Below, piece by piece: positions 4,588 to 26,455 of a stretch of DNA of 38,187 nt. The notes below the pieces were generated by a model. It was not told the DNA's origin. It searched no databases and saw only the letters and a list, made by a program, of their open reading frames with translations. The stretch lies in contig CAIJNQ010000105.1 in the NCBI GenBank assembly GCA_903822015.1, positions 1 to 38,187 of the forward strand, given 5' to 3'. Position 1 is the first letter of the stretch; each line of letters starts with the position of its first letter. This DNA comes from an uncultured Verrucomicrobia subdivision 3 bacterium (lineage in GTDB: Bacteria > Verrucomicrobiota > Verrucomicrobiia > Limisphaerales > UBA11358). Made by a program: the position numbers and the translations under genes.

Positions 4588-5550
4588 ATGAAAAAATTCT
4601 TCAGTTTGAACTTGCTGGTTTTGGCGGCCGGGGTGTTTTTCACCGGCTGCGCTCCATCTTCCCCGGGTCAGTTCCAAGGTTATGTCGAAGGTGAATACGT
4701 TTACGTCGCGTCCCCGTTGGGCGGGGCGCTCGCCCGTCTCGCCGTGGCCCGCGGCGACGAAGTGAAATCCGGGCAGGTGCTGTTTGCGCTGGAGCGCGAG
4801 TCCGAGGCCAGCGCCGTCCGGCAGGCCGAGAAAAATCTCGCGCAATCGCAATCCCAGCTGGACGATTTGATCACCGGCAAGCGGCCGACCGAAATCGCCT
4901 CGCTTGAAGCCCAATGGCAACAGGCGCAGGCAAATTTGAAACTGGCCGACGACCAGCTGACCCGCCGTGAACGGCTCGGCGACGCCAGTGTGATTTCCTC
5001 GGAGGAATTGGATCAAGCGCGGGCCCAGCGCGACGCCGACCAGGCGCATGTTGATCAGCTAACAGCGGATTTGGCCACCGCCAAACTGGGCGGCCGGGAT
5101 GACGCCATCCGCGCTGCGCAGGCGGCCGTCGCCTCACAGCAGGCCGCGCTCGACAAGGCGAAGTGGTCCTTCGACCAGAAACAGCAGTTCGCGCCCGCGG
5201 ATGCGCTGGTGCATGACACGCTTTATCGCCAGGGCGAATGGGTCGCGGCCGGAAATCCCGTTGTGGTCCTGCTGCCGCCGGAAAATTTGAAGGTGCGCTT
5301 TTTTGTGCCGCAGGAAATGCTGCCGAAAATCAAGACCGGCCAGAACGTCAACGTCAGCTTCGATGGCGCGGCAAAAAATTATTCTGCGACGGTGAATTAT
5401 ATCTCCACGCAGGCCGAATTCACGCCGCCGGTGATTTACAACCGCGAGAACCGGGCCAAGCTGGTGTTTATGATCGAGGCCAAATTTGCGCCGGCGGATG
5501 CGGTGGCGGTCAGGCCGGGTCAGCCGGTGGATGTGAAGATCTCCCCGTAA
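4588..5550 (+). CDS. HlyD/YbhG-like membrane fusion lipoprotein
   Basis: Periplasmic adaptor linking an inner-membrane ABC transporter to an outer-membrane channel. The 320-residue protein starts with a lipoprotein signal (MKKFFSLNLLVLAAG, lipobox FTGC). It then has a split biotinyl-lipoyl-like domain (YVASPLGGALARLAVARGDEVKSGQVLFAL), an Ala/Gln/Asp-rich helical hairpin at about residues 75-200, the returning lipoyl half (FAPADALVHDTLYRQGEWVAAGNPVVVLLPP) and a beta-barrel region (VRFFVPQEMLPKIKTGQNVNVSFDG). The family architecture is complete. The ATPase gene begins three bases after its stop, so the two are probably one operon. The set resembles YbhG-YbhF-YbhS of E. coli by order and domain type. 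Confidence 0.92.
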   Translation: MKKFFSLNLLVLAAGVFFTGCAPSSPGQFQGYVEGEYVYVASPLGGALARLAVARGDEVKSGQVLFALERESEASAVRQAEKNLAQSQSQLDDLITGKRPTEIASLEAQWQQAQANLKLADDQLTRRERLGDASVISSEELDQARAQRDADQAHVDQLTADLATAKLGGRDDAIRAAQAAVASQQAALDKAKWSFDQKQQFAPADALVHDTLYRQGEWVAAGNPVVVLLPPENLKVRFFVPQEMLPKIKTGQNVNVSFDGAAKNYSATVNYISTQAEFTPPVIYNRENRAKLVFMIEAKFAPADAVAVRPGQPVDVKISP

Positions 5551-5553
5551 AAC

Positions 5554-6480
5554 ATGAGCGCCGGCGACCTTGTCATTGACGTCCGCAACGTCACCAAGAA
5601 ATTTGGCGCGCGCACCGTCGTCAACCACATCGCCATGCAGGTCCGGCCCGGCGAAATTTACGGCTTTCTCGGCCCGAACGGCAGCGGCAAAACCACCTTT
5701 TTGCGCATGCTCTGCGGCCTGCTCAAGCCGGACGGCGGCGAAGGCAGCTGCCTCGGGCTGGACTTTCGCACGCAAAGCGCCGAGATCAAAAAGCGCGTCG
5801 GCTACATGACGCAGCGATTCAGCTTCTACGAGGATTTGAGCATCGAGGAGAATCTGGATTTCATTGCGCGCATTTACGGCGTCCCGGAGCGCAAGGCTGC
5901 CGTAGAGAAAAGCCTCGAACGCCTCGGCATGGTCGAGCGACGCCGGCAGCTGGCTGGAACGCTATCCGGCGGCTGGAAACAGCGGCTCGCGCTGTCGGCC
6001 TGCCTCATCCACGAACCCCAGCTGCTCCTGCTGGACGAGCCGACGGCGGGCGTTGACCCGAAGGCCCGAAGGGAATTTTGGGATGAGATTCATCAGCTTG
6101 CCGCCGGCGGTTTGACGGTGCTCATCACAACGCATTACATGGACGAGGCGGAACGCTGCCACCGGCTTGCTTACATCGCTTATGGCAATCTGCTTGCCAG
6201 CGGTGCGGTGGCGGACGTGGTGAAAGCCGCCGCGCTCACGACTTGGGAAGTCACGGGAACCAATCTCGCCACGCTTGCGGAAAAAATCCGAAAATTGCCG
6301 GGTGTGGAACAGGTCGTCGCGTTCGGCACCGCCTTGCACGTCAGCGGTCGCAATGCGGCGAAGCTGCGCGCCAGCGTGGGCCCATGGATGACGGGCGAAT
6401 TCCATTGGACGCCGATTCAATCCGGTTTGGAGGACGTGTTCATCAGCCTCATGGACATTGCGGAGGATAATTTCAAGTGA
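5554..6480 (+). CDS. ABC transporter ATP-binding protein (YbhF/CcmA-like)
   Basis: Cytoplasmic ATPase of the exporter, 308 residues with one nucleotide-binding domain. Walker A is GPNGSGKT (40-47). The signature is LSGGW rather than LSGGQ, a variant common in drug-type ABC-2 exporters. Walker B is LLLLDEP, followed by TAGVDPKARREFW and the switch histidine in ITTHYMDEA. The C-terminal 80 residues (TWEVTGTNLATLAEKIRKLPGVEQV onward, ending SGLEDVFISLM) form the usual accessory domain of this class. YbhF of E. coli has two ATPase domains; this has one, so it presumably dimerises. Its stop overlaps the GTG start of the permease gene. Confidence 0.95.
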   Translation: MSAGDLVIDVRNVTKKFGARTVVNHIAMQVRPGEIYGFLGPNGSGKTTFLRMLCGLLKPDGGEGSCLGLDFRTQSAEIKKRVGYMTQRFSFYEDLSIEENLDFIARIYGVPERKAAVEKSLERLGMVERRRQLAGTLSGGWKQRLALSACLIHEPQLLLLDEPTAGVDPKARREFWDEIHQLAAGGLTVLITTHYMDEAERCHRLAYIAYGNLLASGAVADVVKAAALTTWEVTGTNLATLAEKIRKLPGVEQVVAFGTALHVSGRNAAKLRASVGPWMTGEFHWTPIQSGLEDVFISLMDIAEDNFK

Positions 6481-7616
6481 AACTGCACGAATTCAACTGG
6501 CGGCGGTTTTGCGCGGTGGTCCGCAAGGAGTTCATCCAGATGCGCCGCGACCGCATGACCTTCGGCATGATGATTGGCGTGCCGATGATCCAGCTTATCC
6601 TGTTCGGCTACGCCATCAATTCCGACCCCAAGCATCTGCCCACGGCGGTTTTTTCGGCCGACAACAGCATCTTTGCCCGCAGCCTGGTCTGGGGCATGCG
6701 GAACAGCAGTTACTTCGATATCACGCGTGAGCCGAAGAACGAGGCGGAGATCAACACTTTATTGGCGCAAAACACCGTCCAGTTTGCCGTGACTATTCCG
6801 GTGGATTTCTCCCGCAAGCTGTTGCGCGGCGAGAAGCCGGACCTGCTGCTTGAGGCCGACGCCACCGATCCGACGGCGGTGGGTTATGCCATCGCCGCAA
6901 TGAACTCGCTGACGCCAACCGTTTTGAATCGTGATCTCATCGGGCCGCTGGCGAAATTGAACGGTTCGGCCCCGCCGTTCAATCTGGTCGTCCAGCAGCA
7001 TTACAATCCGGAAAATATTACGCAGTATAACATCGTGCCCGGACTGATGGGCGTGATGCTGACGATGACGATGGTGATGATAACCGCGCTGGCCATCACG
7101 CGGGAACGCGAACGCGGAACGATGGAAAACCTTCTCTCCACGCCGGTGCGGCCGGGTGAGGTGCTCATCGGCAAAATCGTGCCCTACATCGCCGTCGGTT
7201 ACATTCAGGTGACCCTGATTCTGCTCGCGGCGAAATTTTTGTTCGACGTGCCGATGGTGGGCAGTCTGCCGCTGCTGGTGGCCATGACGTTTTTGTTCAT
7301 TGTCGCCAACCTGGCGGTCGGCATCACCTTCTCGACCGTCGCCAAAAACCAGCTGCAGGCCATGCAGATGGCGTTTTTCTTCTTCCTCCCGTCATTACTG
7401 TTGTCGGGCTACATGTTCCCATTCCGTGGAATGCCGGTCTGGGCGCAAAATGTCGGTGAATGCCTGCCGCTGACCCATTTTCTTCGCGTCGTGCGGGGGA
7501 TCTTGCTGAAAGGAAATGGAATTGTCGAAATCGCACCGGATCTATGGCCGATTGTATTATTCCTGCTCGTGATGCTGATCATCGGCGTTAAACGCTACCG
7601 CCAGACGCTGGATTAG
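6477..7616 (+). CDS. ABC-2 type permease (YbhS/YbhR-like)
   Basis: Inner-membrane subunit of the exporter, 379 residues, starting at a GTG that overlaps the ATPase stop by four bases (GTGA). The topology is that of ABC2_membrane_3 proteins: an N-terminal helix (FGMMIGVPMIQLILFGYAI), a large extracytoplasmic domain (about residues 40-175), and a cluster of about five C-terminal helices (GLMGVMLTMTMVMITALAI, VGYIQVTLILLAAKFLF, LLVAMTFLFIVANLAVGI, FFFFLPSLLLSGYMFPF, IVLFLLVMLIIGV). The coupling motif RERERGTMENLLSTPVRPGEVLIGK is present. It probably acts as a homodimer, because no second permease gene follows. Confidence 0.93.
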   Translation: MKLHEFNWRRFCAVVRKEFIQMRRDRMTFGMMIGVPMIQLILFGYAINSDPKHLPTAVFSADNSIFARSLVWGMRNSSYFDITREPKNEAEINTLLAQNTVQFAVTIPVDFSRKLLRGEKPDLLLEADATDPTAVGYAIAAMNSLTPTVLNRDLIGPLAKLNGSAPPFNLVVQQHYNPENITQYNIVPGLMGVMLTMTMVMITALAITRERERGTMENLLSTPVRPGEVLIGKIVPYIAVGYIQVTLILLAAKFLFDVPMVGSLPLLVAMTFLFIVANLAVGITFSTVAKNQLQAMQMAFFFFLPSLLLSGYMFPFRGMPVWAQNVGECLPLTHFLRVVRGILLKGNGIVEIAPDLWPIVLFLLVMLIIGVKRYRQTLD

Positions 7617-7691: not shown

Positions 7692-9266
7692 ATGTGGCAA
7701 GCCTTTAGGCGTTTGATTTTAATCGGAAGTCTGCTGGTCGTGTCGGTCTGCACTGCCTCGGAATCTGCCGAGGTCAACCTCGATTATGTGGCCCGACGGG
7801 CGCTCGAACGCGCCCAAAAACCTTTTCACTCGCCGCGGGCCGATCTGCCGAAAGTGTTGCGCCAGGACAATCTCGATTATGACAAATACCGCGAAATCCG
7901 TTTCCGCCGGGACCGGGCCCTCTGGACGGCGGACGACCTGCCGTTCCGTATGGAGTTTTTCCATCCGGGCTATCTGTATCAGGAGCCCGTTCACGTTTAC
8001 GAGTTTACGCTGACGCATGTCCAGCCGATCCGTTTTGTCCAGGACTTTTTTGATTACGGTAACCTGAAGATTCAGAATCAGATTCCGGTCAACACGGGCT
8101 ACGCCGGCTTCCGGATTTTGCACCCTTTGAACCAGGCAAATCAGCTGGACGAACTCGGGGCGTTTCTGGGCGCAAGTTATTTCCGGTTGCTCGGCAAAAA
8201 CCAGCGTTACGGCATGTCGGCGCGCGGGCTGGCACTGGATAGCGGTGAATCGGATCGCCCGGAGGAATTTCCGATCTTCACCGACTGGTGGCTGGGCAAG
8301 CCGCAGAAAGAGGATACGGAGCTGCGGTTGTTTGCGATCCTCGACAGCGTGAGCGGCGTTGGTGCTTATGAATTCCTCATCCGTCCCGGCGACACCACCA
8401 TTTGCGACGTGGAAGCCGTTTTGTTTCTGCGCGAAACCAACAAGGTCCTCAAAGTGGACCCGAAGCGGCTGCCGATCAAGACCCTCGGACTAGCGCCGTT
8501 GACGAGCATGTTCTGGTTCGGCAAGACCACCGAACACAAGCCGGACGATTACCGGTCGGAAGTCCACGACAGCGATGGCTTGCTGGCGAAGATGGACGGC
8601 GGCGAGGTCCTCTGGCGTCCCCTGGACAATCCGTCGGCCATCCGCCACCAGATTTTCTCCGCGCCGAACATCCGCGGTTTCGGCCTGATGCAACGGGAGC
8701 GTTCGTTCGCGGCCTATCAGGACAGCTTCAATCCCTACCATCTGGTGCCGAGCGTTTGGGTGGAACCGCATGGCAACTGGGGGGACGGTGACCTGCACCT
8801 GTTGGAGTTGAGCGCCCAATTCGAGGGCTTGGACAACATCGTTGCGTTCTGGGATCCGAAAATTAAGCCCGTGCCTCTCCAGCCGTATCGGTTCGGCTAT
8901 ACGCTCTATTGGACGCGGGAAACCGGGGAAAACGGCATGAAGCTCTCGGAAGAACGGGCGATTTCCACGCGCCTCGGCCTGGATTTGAACTGCAAGGAAT
9001 GCCGGCAGATCGTGATTGATTTCGACGGGCCGAAATTGGATGCCTTGCCGGAAAATCAGCCGCCGGTGGCGATCGCCAATTGCAGCCCCAACGCGGCCAT
9101 TGTGGACAACCAGGTGATTCGCAATGATGACTTGGGCACCTGGCGCGTCATTCTGAAAATGCAACCCAAGCCCGGCAATGCGGATCCGGTGGACTTGCGC
9201 TGCACATTGCAACAGGGTACGAATGTTTTGAGCGAGACCTGGACTTACGAATGGAGTCCGCCGTGA
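7692..9266 (+). CDS. opgG: Periplasmic glucan biosynthesis protein OpgG/MdoG
   Basis: Periplasmic protein needed for making osmoregulated periplasmic glucans, where it acts on the beta-1,2-linked backbone extruded by OpgH. The 524 residues compare with 511 in E. coli. A signal peptide is visible (LILIGSLLVVSVCTASESA). The MdoG fold is recognisable from YDKYREIRFRRDRALW, FHPGYLYQEPVHVYEF, LGASYFRLLGKNQRYGMSARGLAL, PLTSMFWFGKTTE, DGLLAKMDGGEVLWRPLDNP and the C-terminal domain (FRFGY-like segment RFGYTLYWTRE). It begins 75 bases after the ABC permease and overlaps the next gene by 16 bases, so opgG, the unknown gene and opgH form one tight operon. Confidence 0.95.
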   Translation: MWQAFRRLILIGSLLVVSVCTASESAEVNLDYVARRALERAQKPFHSPRADLPKVLRQDNLDYDKYREIRFRRDRALWTADDLPFRMEFFHPGYLYQEPVHVYEFTLTHVQPIRFVQDFFDYGNLKIQNQIPVNTGYAGFRILHPLNQANQLDELGAFLGASYFRLLGKNQRYGMSARGLALDSGESDRPEEFPIFTDWWLGKPQKEDTELRLFAILDSVSGVGAYEFLIRPGDTTICDVEAVLFLRETNKVLKVDPKRLPIKTLGLAPLTSMFWFGKTTEHKPDDYRSEVHDSDGLLAKMDGGEVLWRPLDNPSAIRHQIFSAPNIRGFGLMQRERSFAAYQDSFNPYHLVPSVWVEPHGNWGDGDLHLLELSAQFEGLDNIVAFWDPKIKPVPLQPYRFGYTLYWTRETGENGMKLSEERAISTRLGLDLNCKECRQIVIDFDGPKLDALPENQPPVAIANCSPNAAIVDNQVIRNDDLGTWRVILKMQPKPGNADPVDLRCTLQQGTNVLSETWTYEWSPP

Positions 9267-9901
9267 ACCCCGCGATCTTGCCCGATGCATCCGGCCAGCT
9301 GGCTGGCCGGCCGCTGGAGGAGTGGAATGCCGCTTACGCCAAGGTCGAAAGCTATTTTCATGCGCTCCGCATCCGCAACAAACCGCTGCTGGGCCAGCTC
9401 GTCCTGCGTGTTCTGGAAAGGGCCCAGCGCCGCGCGCCCGCCGAGCTGAACCGCTCCGCCACGCTGCTCGCCGCCGAGGAAATGGACCGCACCGTAACCG
9501 AATGGTTTTCCGAGGTCCTGCAAGTTTCGCCAACCAACACGGACCAGACTCTTTCCACGCGCGGCCGGCTGGCGCTGCTGCTCGCCGACATGCCGGGCAA
9601 ATGGCAGGACCAGTTTCTGCGTCCGGGCCCGTGGCCGGAAGAATTCACCAGCGCTATGCGGGAAACTTTTTTCCGCGCCGGGCCGGACTTCCAGCTTTCG
9701 AAGATGACGCCGCGGCCGCTCGACCTCGGCCCGATCACGACGCTGACCAATCTGGGGCGGCTGCCCTATTTCCGGATGGTGCTGGTGTGGACGTTGTTCG
9801 CGCTCCTGCTCGTCGTTGTTTTCTGGCTGACCCATGGCGGTTTCGAGCAGGTCAACGCCCGTCTATTGCTGCTGATCGACTGGTTCCGGCAAAATGGCTG
9901 A
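9251..9901 (+). CDS. Unrecognised membrane protein encoded between opgG and opgH
   Basis: I do not recognise this 216-residue protein. It has a mostly helical, Leu/Arg-rich soluble part (residues 1-170, including RPLEEWNAAYAKVESYFHALRI and a Trp/Pro-rich stretch at 118-130) and one strong transmembrane helix at about 176-194, followed by a short tail that may be a second amphipathic helix. There is no signal peptide, so the soluble part is probably cytoplasmic. Its ATG lies inside the end of opgG (16-base overlap) and its end overlaps opgH by eight bases, so it is very probably translated and coupled to both. OpgH here lacks the roughly 130-residue N-terminal extension of E. coli OpgH. This gene may supply an equivalent, but no sequence likeness was seen by eye. 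Confidence 0.75.
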   Translation: MESAVNPAILPDASGQLAGRPLEEWNAAYAKVESYFHALRIRNKPLLGQLVLRVLERAQRRAPAELNRSATLLAAEEMDRTVTEWFSEVLQVSPTNTDQTLSTRGRLALLLADMPGKWQDQFLRPGPWPEEFTSAMRETFFRAGPDFQLSKMTPRPLDLGPITTLTNLGRLPYFRMVLVWTLFALLLVVVFWLTHGGFEQVNARLLLLIDWFRQNG

Positions 9902-12041
9902 GGCACTGAACATTTCCGTGGCGGCGGCTCCCCGGCTACAGCGGGGCTGGCGCGTCTTCATCTTTTTTTCCTGCGCCCTGCTGCTCACCGGATTGGTTTC
10001 GCTGCTCTTCGCCGATCTGCTCTGGCGCACCGGCTGGTCCGCCGCCTGCACCGTCCTCATGGTGCTCTTCGTGATTTTGTTTCTGTTTGCCGCCATCGGC
10101 TGCGTGCACGGGCTTTTTGGCTTTTTTCTGCGGACCTTCGGCGACGATCGCCGGATTACCAACCTCAAAAGTTACCACGACCAGCCAGTCGACGGCATCA
10201 GCACCGCCATCATCTTTCCAATTTACAACGAAAACGTCGTGCGCGTTTACGAAGGCTTGCGCGCAACCTACGAATCGCTGGTCAAGGCCGGGCAGCTCGA
10301 CCGGTTCGATTTTTTCATCCTGAGCGACTCGACGGATCCGGACAAATGGGTGGAGGAAGAGCGCCGCTGGTACGATTTGATCCGCGAACTCGATGCGCTG
10401 GGGAAGATTTATTACCGCCGCCGGCTGGTCAATGAAGCCCGCAAAAGCGGCAACGTGCGTGATTTCCTGAACACCTGGGGCCGCCGTTACCGCTACTTCA
10501 TCTGTTGCGACGCCGACAGCGTGATGCGCGGTGAGACTCTGGTGGACCTGGTGAAATTGATGGAAGCGCATCCGACCGCGGGCATGATTCAGACCGTGCC
10601 CGCTCTGGTCAACGCGGAATCCCTGTTTGGCCGCATCCAGCAGTTTGCCAACCGCCTTTACGCGCCGGTCTTCATCGCCGGGCTGAATTATTGGGCGCTG
10701 GACTTGGGAAATTACTGGGGCCATAACGCCATCATCCGCACCGAGCCGTTCATGCAGTGCTGCGACCTGCCGCAACTGCCCGGCCGCAAGCCGTTCGGCG
10801 GCCAGATTCTGAGCCATGATTTCGTCGAGGCCGCGCTGCTGCTGCGCGAAAACTGGGAGGTCTGGTTCGCCTACGACCTCGAAGGCAGTTACGAGGAGGC
10901 GCCGCAAGCGCTCATCGAAAACGCGCAGCGGGAACGCCGCTGGTGCCAGGGCAATCTGCAGCACACGCTCGTGGTGTTCGCCAAAGGCTTGCGCGGCGTC
11001 AGTCGGCTGCACCTGATTCTTGGCATCTGCGGCTATCTGGCCGGGCCGCTGTGGCTGGCATTTCTACTGACGTTCAACTGGATTTACTGGTACCAGAAAT
11101 ACACCGGCCTGTCGGAGATTCCCGTGCAATCCTTCAATCCGTATTTGAGTGGCTTGAGCGGCACGGCGCATGCGCTATTGGTTTTCGTCATTTGCATGAC
11201 GGTCATCATGCTGCCGAAGGCCCTCGCCCTTATCGACCTGGCGCGCGACTGGCCCCGCCGCAAGGCGTTCGGCGGCCTGGGGTGGACCGCCGCCGGCGTG
11301 GTCGGCGAAACCATTTTTTCCACGCTGCACGCACCGCTGCTGATGCTCTGGCACACCCGCTTTGTGGTCACCAATCTGCTCGGCATCAGCGTCGGGTGGG
11401 CGACGCAAAAACGGTCTGCCGACGGCACCACCTGGCTTTATGCCGCGCAACGGCACTGGGGCCACACGCTCATCGGCGTTTTGTGGGGCGCGTTCATGTG
11501 GCGGCTGGACCCCAGCCTGTTCTGGTGGTTTACGCCGGTTCTCGCCGGTCTGGCCCTATCCATTCCGTTGAGCGTGTTGACCAGCCGTCGCAGTCTGGGC
11601 GCAAATGCCCGGCGGCTGGGATTTTTTAAGACGCCGGAAGAAACCCGGCCGCCGGTGGAACTGGTTTCCCTCCGGGCGCAATTGCGGATTCACGAACTCA
11701 CCGACGACCCCGCGCCGCCGCGTCCGCACGCGGGCTTGGCTGAGGCGATTCTCGATCCCTACGTCAACGCCATCCATGTTTCGCTGCTCCGCGAGAAACA
11801 GCTCAACCCGGTTTATGCCGAGCAGTTTTCCAAGTTCGGTTGCGGCAGTGAATCGGTTCAGGCCTTGGGCGAAAAACTCCTGGCCGAAGGCCCGGACAAA
11901 CTGGCTGCCGGCGAACGGATGCAGGTCATGGCCGATCAGCGCGTGATGGTGTGGCTGCACCAGCAGACGTGGCAGCGGCCCGGCGAATCGCTCGCGCCGT
12001 GGTGGCGCGGCGCGATCCTGGAATTCAGCCGCCGCGATTAG
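9894..12041 (+). CDS. opgH: Glucan glucosyltransferase OpgH/MdoH
   Basis: Inner-membrane family 2 glycosyltransferase that polymerises UDP-glucose into the linear backbone of periplasmic glucans. The 715 residues compare with 847 in E. coli; the difference is mainly the absent cytoplasmic N-terminal extension. Two N-terminal helices (about 20-42 and 50-78) precede the catalytic domain, which carries the expected acidic motifs: LSDSTDP (about 142), CDADSVM (about 204), HDF (about 307), and the RERRWCQGN block (about 345), equivalent to QxxRW. At least five C-terminal helices follow, then a conserved cytoplasmic tail (EETRPPVELVSLRAQL, ILDPYVNAIHVSLL). All catalytic motifs are intact. It is the last gene of the operon and converges on an aminotransferase gene nine bases away. 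Confidence 0.96.
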   Translation: MAEALNISVAAAPRLQRGWRVFIFFSCALLLTGLVSLLFADLLWRTGWSAACTVLMVLFVILFLFAAIGCVHGLFGFFLRTFGDDRRITNLKSYHDQPVDGISTAIIFPIYNENVVRVYEGLRATYESLVKAGQLDRFDFFILSDSTDPDKWVEEERRWYDLIRELDALGKIYYRRRLVNEARKSGNVRDFLNTWGRRYRYFICCDADSVMRGETLVDLVKLMEAHPTAGMIQTVPALVNAESLFGRIQQFANRLYAPVFIAGLNYWALDLGNYWGHNAIIRTEPFMQCCDLPQLPGRKPFGGQILSHDFVEAALLLRENWEVWFAYDLEGSYEEAPQALIENAQRERRWCQGNLQHTLVVFAKGLRGVSRLHLILGICGYLAGPLWLAFLLTFNWIYWYQKYTGLSEIPVQSFNPYLSGLSGTAHALLVFVICMTVIMLPKALALIDLARDWPRRKAFGGLGWTAAGVVGETIFSTLHAPLLMLWHTRFVVTNLLGISVGWATQKRSADGTTWLYAAQRHWGHTLIGVLWGAFMWRLDPSLFWWFTPVLAGLALSIPLSVLTSRRSLGANARRLGFFKTPEETRPPVELVSLRAQLRIHELTDDPAPPRPHAGLAEAILDPYVNAIHVSLLREKQLNPVYAEQFSKFGCGSESVQALGEKLLAEGPDKLAAGERMQVMADQRVMVWLHQQTWQRPGESLAPWWRGAILEFSRRD

Positions 12042-21469: not shown

Positions 21470-24400
21470 ATGAAGCGCCCCCGAAGAATCTCTCCATGGC
21501 TTTCGCTGGTAGTGGCTTCTGCTGTGTTGCTCTTGGGCGCGTCCGCCGCTTCGGGTCAGATGATTGACCTGAACGGCAACGGAATGAGCGACGTTTGGGA
21601 GGCGGTCTACAATGCGAACGGCATCAATCCCAACGCCGATCCGGATGGCGACGGTTTTTCCAATCTGCAGGAGGCTGTCGCCGGCACGAACCCCTTCGAT
21701 TCCAATTCCTATCCCCACATCCCCATCGTTGCCTATTCCGCGACCAATTTTTCCGTGACGCTGCCGTCCGCTCCGGGAAAAGTGTATCAATTGCAAAGCT
21801 TCACCACCGTTGGCGGCACCAATTGGGTTGTGGAAACGAATATCGAGGCGCGGTCGGGCCTCAATTTGACCATGACGGTGCCGGCGGCGGAAATGATGAA
21901 ATTTTATCGCGTTGCCGTTTCGGACGTGAATTCAGATGGCAGCGGGTTGATGAACGATTGGGAAAAATATCAACTCGGCCTGGATCCAGCCAGCCCCGTC
22001 AGCAATGGAAACCAGGATGCCTACGGCAATGCCTTGAATGATTATCGTTACGCCACCAACCTACTGGCGTCCCAGAACACCATCACCATTGCGGCGACCG
22101 ATCCGACGGCGACGCAGCCCGATCCCGGACAAAAAGGGACGTCCACGGGACAATTCACCGTCACCCGCGGCGGGTTTCCGCTGAACACCATCACGGTGAA
22201 TCTCGGCCCCGGCGGGCCGGGTGCCAATCTGGCGACGGCGGGGGTGGATTACAGCAACAATCTGCCGGTGGCAGTCACCTTGCCGGCGGGCACCATTGTC
22301 ACTAACATCATCCTGACGCCCATGGCGGACACCAATCTCGCGACCCCGGTCATCGTGCCATTGCAGATCCAGCCCGGTATTAATTACACCATCGGTGCGC
22401 CAGGCAATGCGGCGGTGTTGATTTATCCCTCGCCGACGGCAGCCGGCACGGGTCTGTTCGGCCAGTATTTCACGAACTCAAGCACCACCTACACGAACAA
22501 AATCAATTTCAATCCCACAAATCTTTTCTATACCCGTTTTGACCCGGTGATCGATTTCAACTGGACGAACGGCACGTCCCCGGATTTGAGCAACGGGCTT
22601 TACGCCGTGCGCTGGACAGGCCAGGTGCAGCCGCAATATTCCGAGACCTATTTCTTCGACGTGAAAAGTGATGACGGCTGCCGGCTCTGGGTCAATGACC
22701 AGTTGCTAATCGACAAATGGCAGGCGCAGGGGGTGACGGATCAGACGAATGCCATCGCGCTTCAGGCCGGCGTCCGCTATGACCTGCGGCTGGAATACCT
22801 GCAGGCCGGCGGCGCCGCTCAGGCACATCTTTATTGGTACAGTCCGAGCCAGTCGGTGCAAATCATTCCGAATACCTGCCTTTATCCGACGAATAGTTTC
22901 GGCGGCGGCAGCTCGAACGCTCCGGCGGTCGTGACGAGCGCGTTGAATGCGTTGGGATTTCTCGGCCAGCCGTTCAGCTTCACGGTCACGGGTGCAAACA
23001 CGCCGCTTGGTTTAACGGCGAATGGTCTGCCGCCGGGCCTGGGCTTCAACCCCGCAACTGGAGTCATTTCCGGCGTGCCGTCGCTGGCGGGCAGTTTTCA
23101 AGTGACGCTCACGGCGAGCAACCTGCTGGGCGCGGGGGCCTCGGTGCTCAACCTCCTGGTACTGAACACCGGCAGTTCTGTGGTGCAGGAAATCTGGACG
23201 AATGTGCCCGGCACCAATGTTGCGGATATCCCGATGGGCTCGCCGGCAAATTTCACCAATATCCTGGGCACGCTCGAGGGCCTCACGAATTTCGGGGACA
23301 ATTATGGCGAACGTGTCCGCGGCTATTTCACCGCGCCGGCAACGGGCAATTATTATTTCTGGATCGCCGGCAGCGACTCGGCGCAGCTGTGGATCTCCAA
23401 CGACGGCGAGCCGGTCAACAAAGTATTGCGGGCGTGGGTTGCCCCGGTGAATAATCCCACGGCAAGCGGGCAGAACGGCACGTCGCCGCGCCAGTGGAAT
23501 TTGCAGCCATCGCAGCCGTCCGGCTGGCTGGTGATGAACGCGGGCCAGAAATACTACCTCGAGATTTTGCACAAGGCCGGTACGGCCACGAACGACAACT
23601 GGTCGGTTGGCTGGCTGCCGGACCCGACCGGCACGAACACCTCGCCGGCTGGGGTGGTGCCGGGCTATTTGCTGACACGTTATTATCCGACTTTGCCGTC
23701 AAACATTCCGGGTACGCTATACTCGGCGAATTTACTGGCGCAAAACGGCATTGCGAGCACCGCCAGCGGCTCGGCGACCCTGAGTTTAAGCGCGGATGGA
23801 ACCCAGGCGATACTACGGGCAAACTACTCCGGCCTTTCCTCGGCCAAAACCGGCGAGCATATCCATTGCGACCCGTATCTGAACAATCCCGGCCAGATCA
23901 TGTTTGATGTGGATACCGCAACCCCGCAACCGGATGGAAGCTATGTCTGGACGATCGCGCCGATCGGGACGCTGCAGCCGTCAGACATCCTGGAAATCAT
24001 CCGCGAGAACAAGGCCTACCTGAACATACACAGCTCCAATTATCCCGGAGGTGAAATCAACGGCCACTTTACCCTGGCCAACGGCACGCAGACGTTCACG
24101 CCGCCCCCGGCGCCGCCCGCTTGGACGGATGATTCCGCCGATCCCAACGCCGCCGTGCGGTTCCTATCCCAGGCGACCTTCGGCGCGACCACCAATGACA
24201 TCGCGCAGGTGCAGTCCCTTGGCTATGCCGGCTGGATCAGCAACCAATTCTCGTTGCCGCCGTCCCATCATCTGCCGGTCGTGTTAACCAACCTATACGC
24301 CGATCCCACCGATCCATACCCGAGTGCGCTCTGGTTCAACGCCTGGTGGCAGCGCTCGATCACCGCGCCGGACCAGTTGCGCCAGCGCGTCGCGTTTGCA

Positions 24401-26455
24401 CTCAGCGAGATTTTCGTCGTGTCGGAAAACGGTGTGCTGGTGAACAACGCGGATGCGCTGGCGTCGTATTACGACATGCTGCTCGACCAGGCGTTTGGCA
24501 ACTATCCTTCCTTGATCCGGGCGGTCACGCTGCACCCGGCGATGGGCTTGTATTTGAATATGCAGGCCAATGACAAGGGAAACCCGGTCACCGGGCTGCA
24601 TCCCAATGAGAATTATGCGCGGGAAATCCAGCAGTTGTTTTCCGTGGGGCTGAACCGGCTCTGGCCGGATGGCACGCTGGTTTTGAATTCGCAGGACAGC
24701 CTGGTGCCGACCTACGGACAGAATGAGATCATGGGTTTTTCCAGCGTTTTTACGGGCTGGAATTATTACCAGACCAACCAGGCCAACAACCGGCTGCCGG
24801 TCAATTGGTACCCGGCTTATAACGGCACCAACCCCATGGTGCTGGTGCCGACTCATCATGAGCTGGGCACCAAACTTGTGCTGGACAATGTCATGTTGCC
24901 GCCGGCGTGGGGCAATCAGACGGTTTATTCAACCTCCACCAACGACATCTACTGCCTGCATGACCTGACGGTGGCGATGAATTCGATTTGCAACAATCAG
25001 AATGTCGGGCCGTTCATCTGTCGCCAACTCATCCAGCGGCTGGTGACGAGTAATCCGAGCCGCGGCTATGTTTACCGCGTCGCGCAGGTATTCAACGACG
25101 ATGGCACCGGCACGCGCGGCAACCTGTCGGCCGTCATTCAAGCCATCCTGCTTGATTACGAAGCGCGCAGCCCGGACCTGATACCCCTGTCCACCTATGG
25201 CAAACAACGCGAACCCCTGCTCCGGGTCACTTCGCTGGCCCGCGCGTTTCCGTCGCCGCCGGGCTTGAGCGGCACTTATTCCGAAAACGGTTCGCAAGTG
25301 ATCACCATCACCACGCCGACGGCGCACCTGATGAACAATGGCGACACGGTGGCGCTGGCTTTCACCGACACGTCGGGCAACCCTGCGCCGCCGAGCCAGA
25401 ACTACAGCGTCACGGCGATCGCGACGAATATTTTCACCGTCAACGCGCCAAACATGTCGACCGGCACCTACGGCCAGACGAACAATGTGATCACGGTGAA
25501 CATCAGCAACAATGGCCTGCAGCCGGGCAACGCCGCGGAACTTGTTTTCACGACCGGCGGGGCGGGCAGCGGATTGTTTTTGATTGCCACAACCAATTCC
25601 ACAACGCAATTCACGGTATCCACGCCCGACAGCGCAACCCGTTCGGGAAACTGTCTGCTGCCGAAAATTTCCACCGCCGGTTACGTGCAAACCGGCTCGA
25701 ATGTCACGGTCAGTTGCTTCGGCCCCCACGGCCTGATCACCAATGAGACCGTCTACGTTCCGGTGAATAACGTTCTGCTCGCGTCCGGCCAGTATCAGGT
25801 CGCGGGCATTCCCGACCCCCTGCATTTCATCCTCCGCGCGACGAACTTGGTGAATTTGACCGAGAGCGGTTTCAATGTTTATCCGCTCGGCCCGCCGCCA
25901 CTGACGCGCTCCGGCACGGTTGGCATCCAGCAAAGCACCTGGAACATGAGCTACACGGATAGCGGTACGACGGCGAGCCTGTTCCAGTCGCCGCTGCGGT
26001 CGCCGACGGTGTTCAACTTCTTTTATCCGAACTACGAATTTCCCGGCGTGCTGGCATCCGCCGGATTGACCACCCCCGAATTCCAACTGACCACCGACAG
26101 CAGCGTTGCGGCGCAGATGAACTTTATTGAAGGCGGCATCCTGGGCAACGCCGGCAACACCAACGGACTGAGCAGTTTCACCGGCGGGAATGGTTCCATC
26201 GTGCTCAACCTCGGCCCGTGGATGACGACCAATTTCACGGCCGATGCCGGCATCCCGGCGCTGATAAGCAATCTGAACACGTTGCTGGCCGCGGGCCAGT
26301 TGTCCGGCGACATGCAAACGAACATCGTCGGCTATGTGGCCAACACGAATAATTTCCCCTACGGCACACCGCCCAGCCAGACGCAGATGCGCGATCGCGC
26401 CCGGGCGGTCGTTCACTTGATCACCGCCTCGCCCGATTACCTCATCCAGAAATAA
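21470..26455 (+). CDS. Giant secreted multidomain DUF1800 protein
   Basis: An exported 1661-residue protein starting with a signal peptide (LSLVVASAVLLLGASAASG). In order: a Ca-binding-like Asp/Asn/Gly segment (DLNGNGMSDVWEA, DPDGDGFSNLQEA, residues 30-75); a region at 75-200; a Calx-beta-like domain (202-320); a PA14 domain (324-470, with SDDGCRLWVNDQLLIDKW); a putative Ig domain (483-565, GLPPGLGFNPATGVISGVP); a second PA14-like domain (570-740); a CHRD domain (743-873, HIHCDPYLNNPG); and DUF1800 (890 to the end, RFLSQATFGAT, LRQRVAFALSEIFVVS, HPNENYAREIQQLFSVG). DUF1800 is split by a beta-rich insert at about 1262-1503. DUF1800 proteins have no settled activity. The DUF1501 gene follows after four bases; the two families commonly occur as a pair. 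Confidence 0.9.
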   Translation: MKRPRRISPWLSLVVASAVLLLGASAASGQMIDLNGNGMSDVWEAVYNANGINPNADPDGDGFSNLQEAVAGTNPFDSNSYPHIPIVAYSATNFSVTLPSAPGKVYQLQSFTTVGGTNWVVETNIEARSGLNLTMTVPAAEMMKFYRVAVSDVNSDGSGLMNDWEKYQLGLDPASPVSNGNQDAYGNALNDYRYATNLLASQNTITIAATDPTATQPDPGQKGTSTGQFTVTRGGFPLNTITVNLGPGGPGANLATAGVDYSNNLPVAVTLPAGTIVTNIILTPMADTNLATPVIVPLQIQPGINYTIGAPGNAAVLIYPSPTAAGTGLFGQYFTNSSTTYTNKINFNPTNLFYTRFDPVIDFNWTNGTSPDLSNGLYAVRWTGQVQPQYSETYFFDVKSDDGCRLWVNDQLLIDKWQAQGVTDQTNAIALQAGVRYDLRLEYLQAGGAAQAHLYWYSPSQSVQIIPNTCLYPTNSFGGGSSNAPAVVTSALNALGFLGQPFSFTVTGANTPLGLTANGLPPGLGFNPATGVISGVPSLAGSFQVTLTASNLLGAGASVLNLLVLNTGSSVVQEIWTNVPGTNVADIPMGSPANFTNILGTLEGLTNFGDNYGERVRGYFTAPATGNYYFWIAGSDSAQLWISNDGEPVNKVLRAWVAPVNNPTASGQNGTSPRQWNLQPSQPSGWLVMNAGQKYYLEILHKAGTATNDNWSVGWLPDPTGTNTSPAGVVPGYLLTRYYPTLPSNIPGTLYSANLLAQNGIASTASGSATLSLSADGTQAILRANYSGLSSAKTGEHIHCDPYLNNPGQIMFDVDTATPQPDGSYVWTIAPIGTLQPSDILEIIRENKAYLNIHSSNYPGGEINGHFTLANGTQTFTPPPAPPAWTDDSADPNAAVRFLSQATFGATTNDIAQVQSLGYAGWISNQFSLPPSHHLPVVLTNLYADPTDPYPSALWFNAWWQRSITAPDQLRQRVAFALSEIFVVSENGVLVNNADALASYYDMLLDQAFGNYPSLIRAVTLHPAMGLYLNMQANDKGNPVTGLHPNENYAREIQQLFSVGLNRLWPDGTLVLNSQDSLVPTYGQNEIMGFSSVFTGWNYYQTNQANNRLPVNWYPAYNGTNPMVLVPTHHELGTKLVLDNVMLPPAWGNQTVYSTSTNDIYCLHDLTVAMNSICNNQNVGPFICRQLIQRLVTSNPSRGYVYRVAQVFNDDGTGTRGNLSAVIQAILLDYEARSPDLIPLSTYGKQREPLLRVTSLARAFPSPPGLSGTYSENGSQVITITTPTAHLMNNGDTVALAFTDTSGNPAPPSQNYSVTAIATNIFTVNAPNMSTGTYGQTNNVITVNISNNGLQPGNAAELVFTTGGAGSGLFLIATTNSTTQFTVSTPDSATRSGNCLLPKISTAGYVQTGSNVTVSCFGPHGLITNETVYVPVNNVLLASGQYQVAGIPDPLHFILRATNLVNLTESGFNVYPLGPPPLTRSGTVGIQQSTWNMSYTDSGTTASLFQSPLRSPTVFNFFYPNYEFPGVLASAGLTTPEFQLTTDSSVAAQMNFIEGGILGNAGNTNGLSSFTGGNGSIVLNLGPWMTTNFTADAGIPALISNLNTLLAAGQLSGDMQTNIVGYVANTNNFPYGTPPSQTQMRDRARAVVHLITASPDYLIQK

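Follow-up and report, generated by a model that had tools for sequence, protein, structure and literature searches.

A conserved, predicted membrane-anchored protein encoded between opgG and opgH in Verrucomicrobiota, a candidate third subunit of the OpgG/OpgH system

Background

OpgH is known as a glucan synthase and, in Escherichia coli, as a nutrient-dependent brake on cell division. It is a GT2 protein according to Pfam, and small accessory membrane subunits are needed beside several GT2 polysaccharide synthases (PgaD with PgaC, Alg44 with Alg8, and BcsB with BcsA). The E. coli OpgH has 138 residues before its first transmembrane helix, and the peptide 83-101 within this extension suffices to inhibit division and to localise to midcell (PMC3723540). 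According to the same source, the N-terminal region (OpgH-N) still inhibits division in E. coli when residues 83-101 carry alanine changes or are deleted, so this peptide is not the whole story (PMC3723540). OpgI of Rhodobacter sphaeroides is a precedent for such a third gene, since opgI, like the gene analyzed here, is a small extra gene between opgG and opgH; when present together, opgI and opgH of the opgGIH operon are reported to complement the deletion of opgH in E. coli (PMC10514313).

Here we describe a gene between opgG and opgH in a stretch of 38,187 nucleotides (the window), positions 1-38,187 of contig CAIJNQ010000105.1 from the assembly GCA_903822015.1 of an uncultured Verrucomicrobia subdivision 3 bacterium. 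The name Mid is used for the 216-residue middle protein that it encodes. On balance, and with moderate confidence, we read Mid as a dedicated membrane-anchored third subunit of OpgG/OpgH, which would supply in trans a segment that the OpgH proteins of beta- and gamma-proteobacteria carry in cis.

Results and discussion

Organization of the operon

The operon in the window consists of overlapping genes on the plus strand. The first gene, opgG (mdoG; 7692-9266), encodes a periplasmic glucan biosynthesis protein of 524 aa that matches the Pfam family PF04349 MdoG with 537.6 bits (E 3.9e-161). This was the only MdoG match found by profile search in the genome of the window, an assembly of 310 contigs and 2.85 Mb that is 73% complete. 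The last gene, opgH (mdoH; 9894-12041), encodes a membrane glucosyltransferase of 715 aa in its short form, as judged from the NCBIfam model NF003958 (786.3 bits) and from the alignment with E. coli OpgH. The model describes the short MdoH subfamily and covers the protein end to end (residues 15-705 on the 704 model positions). The operon thus encodes both the MdoG-family protein and the MdoH glucosyltransferase expected of an opgGH osmoregulated periplasmic glucan system. Between these two genes lies the Mid reading frame (9251-9901), which overlaps opgG by 16 bases and opgH by 8 bases; both overlaps agree with an earlier note made from the sequence.

Mid is a genuine gene, because its differences from relatives pile up on the third codon position (pooled counts of 1440/1110/4141 at codon positions 1/2/3). 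Its exact start is uncertain; a start at GTG 9263 would give a protein of 212 aa and an overlap of 4 bases with opgG. At the position of this GTG, 23 of 78 loci have an ATG, GTG, or TTG codon, so that for the family a start at ATG 9251 is plausible, though not proven. Directly upstream of opgG, at 4588-7616, we noticed by eye genes that resemble an ABC efflux set, namely a membrane fusion protein, an ATPase, and an ABC-2 permease. The plus strand of the window also contains an open reading frame of 1661 aa at 21470-26455.

Mid as an unannotated protein family

Database searches agreed with the initial description of Mid as an unknown protein. Neither Pfam nor NCBIfam gave a match to the window protein at E<=1, and Mid matched no curated family above its cut-off. 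The PHROGs search returned a single match (E 0.21), the best PDB match by sequence had an E of 0.45, and comparison of the Mid model with the PDB by Foldseek gave nothing at E<=0.001, with weak matches to sigma-region and RsbN folds. One of 55 relatives matched the Pfam family TarS_linker at 22.6 bits, below the cut-off of 27, and this match was taken as chance. When viral contigs were searched for OpgH, 17 pattern matches were obtained with no relative among them. A literature search, with most subscription journals outside its coverage, found no account of this gene. Like PgaD, Alg44, and BcsB, Mid would be a small or anchored second protein beside a GT2 synthase; the Pfam, PDB, and Foldseek searches found no sequence or fold relation between Mid and these subunits.

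Mid is a conserved unannotated family that accompanies OpgH across Verrucomicrobiota, with members in Chthoniobacter flavus and Luteolibacter. An OpgH-associated family of this phylum that lacked annotation has thereby received a name.

Predicted architecture of Mid

The architecture of Mid was predicted with AlphaFold2 (55 sequences, mean pLDDT 79.1, pTM 0.58) and from alignments. Residues 22-142 (9314-9676, plus strand as for all parts of Mid) form a predicted helical domain with helices at 22-38, 44-64, 70-90, 100-112, 116-122, and 130-142, in which EWNAAY and GRLALLLADMPGKWQ..FL..PWP are conserved; this domain is probably cytoplasmic. It is followed by a conserved segment at residues 140-166 (9668-9748), FFRAGPDFQLSKMTPRPLDLGPITTLT, where model confidence is low. 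A transmembrane helix is predicted at residues 172-195 (9764-9835), coincides with a hydrophobic stretch in the translation, and is probably oriented with its N-terminus inside; this prediction agrees with the earlier claim of a one-helix protein. Behind the membrane the model has a C-terminal helix at residues 198-215 (9842-9895) that is absent from many relatives, and 4 of 16 alignment rows, the window among them, run well beyond the conserved TH after the transmembrane helix.

The conserved segment just before the membrane follows the pattern M-x-P-x-P-[W/L]. Throughout the 55 Mid sequences G144, P145, F147, and M152 are invariant, with P154 and P156 almost invariant, and the pLDDT falls below 50 at residues 147-157. 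Being strongly conserved yet without a predicted fold of its own, this segment may be a partner-binding peptide.

OpgH without the N-terminal extension

Alignment with E. coli OpgH showed, in agreement with the initial description, that the OpgH of the window lacks the N-terminal extension of the E. coli type. Across 70 related loci with a measurable OpgH N-terminus, the first transmembrane helix is preceded by a median of 20 residues (range 16-68), and a full-length OpgH beside Mid was seen in none of them. The pattern M-x-P-x-x-[WLIF] occurs in 0 of these 70 N-termini; therefore the segment sits in either Mid or OpgH, not in both.

The earlier note had tied the shortness of OpgH to the inserted gene, and this connection was not supported. 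The OpgH proteins of Azospirillum, Sphingomonas, and Bradyrhizobium also lack the extension and have no gene between opgG and opgH. Short OpgH therefore also occurs without Mid, and a loss of the extension as a consequence of Mid gains no support. The short type of OpgH is well established and ordinary, not something special to this operon.

Similarity of the Mid segment to the E. coli OpgH extension

The segment ahead of the membrane in Mid, GPDFQLSKMTPRPLDLGP, aligns with residues 77-101 of E. coli OpgH and with the middle protein of Leptospira. Like Mid, E. coli OpgH-N (residues 1-138) carries the segment, around M89-F-P-D-P-W94, ahead of a membrane helix. Unlike Mid, it is built into OpgH and has no match to the Mid helical domain, whereas Mid has a transmembrane helix of its own. 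Comparison of whole profiles by hhalign gave a single alignment, which falls on the M-P-P segment that is well conserved in each profile and pairs Mid 140-170 with residues 77-108 of E. coli OpgH (score 27.8, P 0.0018, probability only 14.7%). A rerun placed Mid 140-164 on E. coli 77-101 with a score of 28.0, and 0 of 300 column shuffles scored as high (mean 13.4, maximum 27.0); the profile of the proteobacterial OpgH N-terminus comprised only four sequences, with the first transmembrane helix included. Only ~25-31 columns align, and the rest of the 138-residue extension is not similar to Mid.

In addition, we built a motif model from the segment only and scored it against 2000 shuffles of each sequence. 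The resulting P values were 0.018 for E. coli, 0.006 for Cupriavidus, and 0.0045 for Mitsuaria, and 0.0005 and 0.035 for L. kobayashii and L. biflexa of Leptospira, respectively. Controls and alphaproteobacterial sequences gave values of at least 0.06, and short middle open reading frames of Verrucomicrobiota were not above chance (0.20 for L163, 0.12 for L178, and no match for L176). These segment tests are not mutually independent, and the resemblance had been spotted by eye beforehand. From the sequence comparisons, the view that the Mid segment is a detached counterpart of the segment in the E. coli OpgH extension is moderately supported, which is not proof.

The middle gene of Leptospira (L. 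biflexa p74 and L. kobayashii pE30-1; L132:2489-2878 and L166:2480-2848, both on plasmids) resembles Mid in lying between an MdoG-family gene and opgH and in encoding the segment (SMVPRNLD or SMVPKDSEW) followed by a transmembrane helix. At 122-129 aa the Leptospira proteins are much shorter than Mid, and the segment is the sole detectable match between them (0 of 150 shuffles as good). Compared directly with the proteobacterial extension, they showed no match, 21 of 150 shuffles being as good. The OpgI-like middle open reading frame of Sulfitobacter (Rhodobacterales) encodes 56 aa with no evident transmembrane helix, in contrast to the 216 aa and one helix of Mid; no sequence relation between the two was found, and the motif model gave a P of 0.73.

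Mid could instead be a lineage-specific stability factor or chaperone of OpgH that is unrelated to the E. coli extension, with the segment match being convergent or due to chance. Such a protein would fit the shortness and modest statistics of the match (the hhalign probability above), the empty fold search at E<=0.001, and the several alphaproteobacterial OpgH proteins that have no extension of any kind. We nevertheless regard this explanation as rather doubtful, given that none of the 300 shuffles reached the hhalign score and that the best whole-profile alignment lands on the M-P-P segment that both profiles conserve strongly.

Distribution and genomic context

We searched 97 relatives; those with names are Limisphaerales or Verrucomicrobia subdivision 3, together with other Verrucomicrobiota. 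Mid is present in 53 of them, MdoG in the identical 53, and OpgH in all but one of these (52). The one genome without OpgH (G024) lacks it only, and its Mid lies at a contig end; all three proteins are missing from another genome (G033). Mid stands directly after opgG in 53/53 relatives. It shares a contig with opgH in 45 of the 52 relatives that have both, and in the other seven (G002, G009, G011, G019, G043, G044, and G045) opgG and Mid are together with opgH on another contig, Mid being at the contig end in G009. In G020 a further, weak match to Mid (14.7 bits) lies in a spurious antisense frame and was rejected.

A scan of GTDB species genomes for Mid yielded 85 loci, and 80 of these were retained. 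All informatively titled loci are from Verrucomicrobiota, and several others are titled only 'bacterium'. The opgG gene precedes Mid in 78 of the 80 loci, and the remaining two start no more than ~210 bases from a contig end. Mid is followed by OpgH in 71 loci; in the other nine, the sequence remaining after Mid amounts to 248 bases (one locus), 1.7 kb (one locus), or 4.4-6.0 kb (seven loci). In two loci (L026, 1980-2453, and L007) an insertion of ~700 bases separates Mid from opgH, and the open reading frame that it contains in L026 resembles a small antitoxin. Four genomes of one genus (L176, L177, L202, and L203) have two tandem MdoG-family genes ahead of opgH.

A broader sample of the phylum comprised 387 genomes, in which Mid was called in 68, MdoG in 80 (two calls, in G244 and G481, being weak and partial), and OpgH in 79 (one call, in G194, being a fragment). 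MdoG and OpgH occur together in 78 genomes, and comparison of the lists showed that 68/68 genomes with Mid have both. In all ten genomes that have opgG and opgH with no Mid call, a gene-sized gap separates the two genes. The gap contains a diverged Mid in four of them (49.8 bits in G224, 32.6 in G135, 29.1 in G144, and 7.6 in G259) and a shorter open reading frame without a profile match in another four, which are two pairs of related genomes (G138, G150, G333, and G336). The last two, G168 and G248, have a similar opgG-opgH distance, seen as a gap only.

Four genomes (G283, G286, G295, and G330) keep Mid with opgH while opgG is elsewhere. In G195 a second Mid is followed by a second OpgH (L189:4786-7628), with no opgG within 11 kb. 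Six solo copies of opgG (L183, L185, L187, L188, L198, and L199) lack both Mid and OpgH in their vicinity. One more (L186) was left out, its sequence ending ~0.3 kb downstream. Mid thus goes with the OpgG/OpgH pair and, in five cases, with OpgH alone. It had been asked whether Mid always lies between opgG and opgH. This is true of its place after opgG in the relatives, but opgH can be on another contig and the five cases just described have no adjacent opgG. A Mid unlinked from both genes at once was not seen, although Mid can adjoin only one of them. Because of this linkage, with Mid staying beside opgH or opgG where the other gene is elsewhere, it is close to certain that Mid is a component of the glucan system.

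The distribution also bears on the idea that Mid is chiefly a regulator of division or of the envelope, directed at FtsZ or another target, for which OpgH would be only a seat and which glucan synthesis would not need. The overlap of the shared segment with the E. coli peptide that suffices for midcell localisation and division inhibition would agree with this idea. However, Mid occurs without OpgH in 0 of 387 genomes, and the OpgH of Mitsuaria retains the segment though most of the remaining extension is gone. This hints at a function linked to OpgH itself, and a regulator of this kind is improbable. It is also unlikely that Mid serves OpgG, as its partner or assembly factor, for example as a membrane anchor coupling periplasmic OpgG to the synthase. 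The constant place of Mid after opgG in the relatives, kept even where opgH is on another contig, would fit such a role; against it stand the four genomes with Mid beside opgH and opgG elsewhere, the second Mid-OpgH pair in G195, the six solo opgG copies without Mid, and the predicted cytoplasmic location of the conserved part of Mid, OpgG being periplasmic.

Fusion and co-folding analysis

The earlier note had suggested that Mid could be a split-off regulatory subunit of the synthase. Its role as a companion of opgG and opgH, the predicted one-helix architecture, and the shared segment favor the regulatory part of this suggestion, whereas no fusion was found that would favor literal splitting. 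Some open frames that include Mid, 930-1003 aa long, were considered as Mid-OpgH fusions and rejected, as reading of the loci showed one stop between open reading frames in the same frame. Every candidate frame read in the 80 GTDB loci and in the loci of further relatives stops between Mid and OpgH. In 22 of the 71 loci with OpgH the two genes are in the same frame and separated by a single stop, which is close to the one third expected by chance; in the window itself the two cannot be joined.

For co-folding, the stop was read through and Mid and OpgH were modeled as one chain from a shallow alignment of 79 rows (22 paired), a run that returned no interface scores. The model had a pLDDT of 82.1 and a pTM of 0.73, with the segment (132-159) below a pLDDT of 50. 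Docking of Mid on the OpgH helices is neither supported nor contradicted by this model, which from its shallow alignment showed no confident interface.

Possible role of Mid

If Mid is a third subunit of OpgG/OpgH, as we favor, the overlapping genes would yield a protein held in the inner membrane by its one helix, with the helical domain probably in the cytoplasm. The M-x-P-x-P-[W/L] segment just before the membrane would correspond to the part of the beta- and gamma-proteobacterial OpgH extension around E. coli residues 77-101. Mid would then work beside OpgH, presumably by binding to it, and its control peptide may tune the synthase or report the state of the synthase to another system, for example cell division. 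A phylum in which the segment seemingly resides on a separate protein would allow the synthase and division roles to be separated, as Mid could be added or removed with the enzyme untouched.

More speculatively, OpgH-type synthases in general might employ a short, M/P-rich control peptide that has been relocated between proteins in the course of evolution. It would be placed at the OpgH N-terminus in beta- and gamma-proteobacteria and Sphingomonas, at the C-terminus in Azospirillum, and on a separate small gene in Verrucomicrobiota, Leptospira, and Rhodobacterales, with the Verrucomicrobiota having it on a membrane protein of its own with a phylum-specific sensor domain. We hold this broader proposal only tentatively and think it rather unlikely as it stands; if it were true, the peptide with which E. 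coli OpgH inhibits division would have been borrowed from the control element of the synthase itself.

A recurrent motif in alphaproteobacterial loci

A separate observation concerns the Alphaproteobacteria. The pattern P-[LIMV]-x-M-P-x-Q was considered as a form of the Mid motif and rejected, the motif model giving P values of 0.73-0.77 for Sulfitobacter, Qingshengfaniella, and Sphingomonas. In the form P-L-x-M-P-x-Q, the pattern recurs among Alphaproteobacteria with opgG beside opgH and is found in different places (L133:4711, L167:2741, L169:2824, and L172:2265): at the OpgH C-terminus in Azospirillum, at the OpgH N-terminus in Sphingomonas, and in a small open reading frame between the genes in Sulfitobacter and, unannotated, in Qingshengfaniella. 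The wider pattern P-[LIMV]-x-M-P-x-Q is present in 4 of 6 alphaproteobacterial loci where opgG adjoins opgH and in 0 of 4 loci where it does not.
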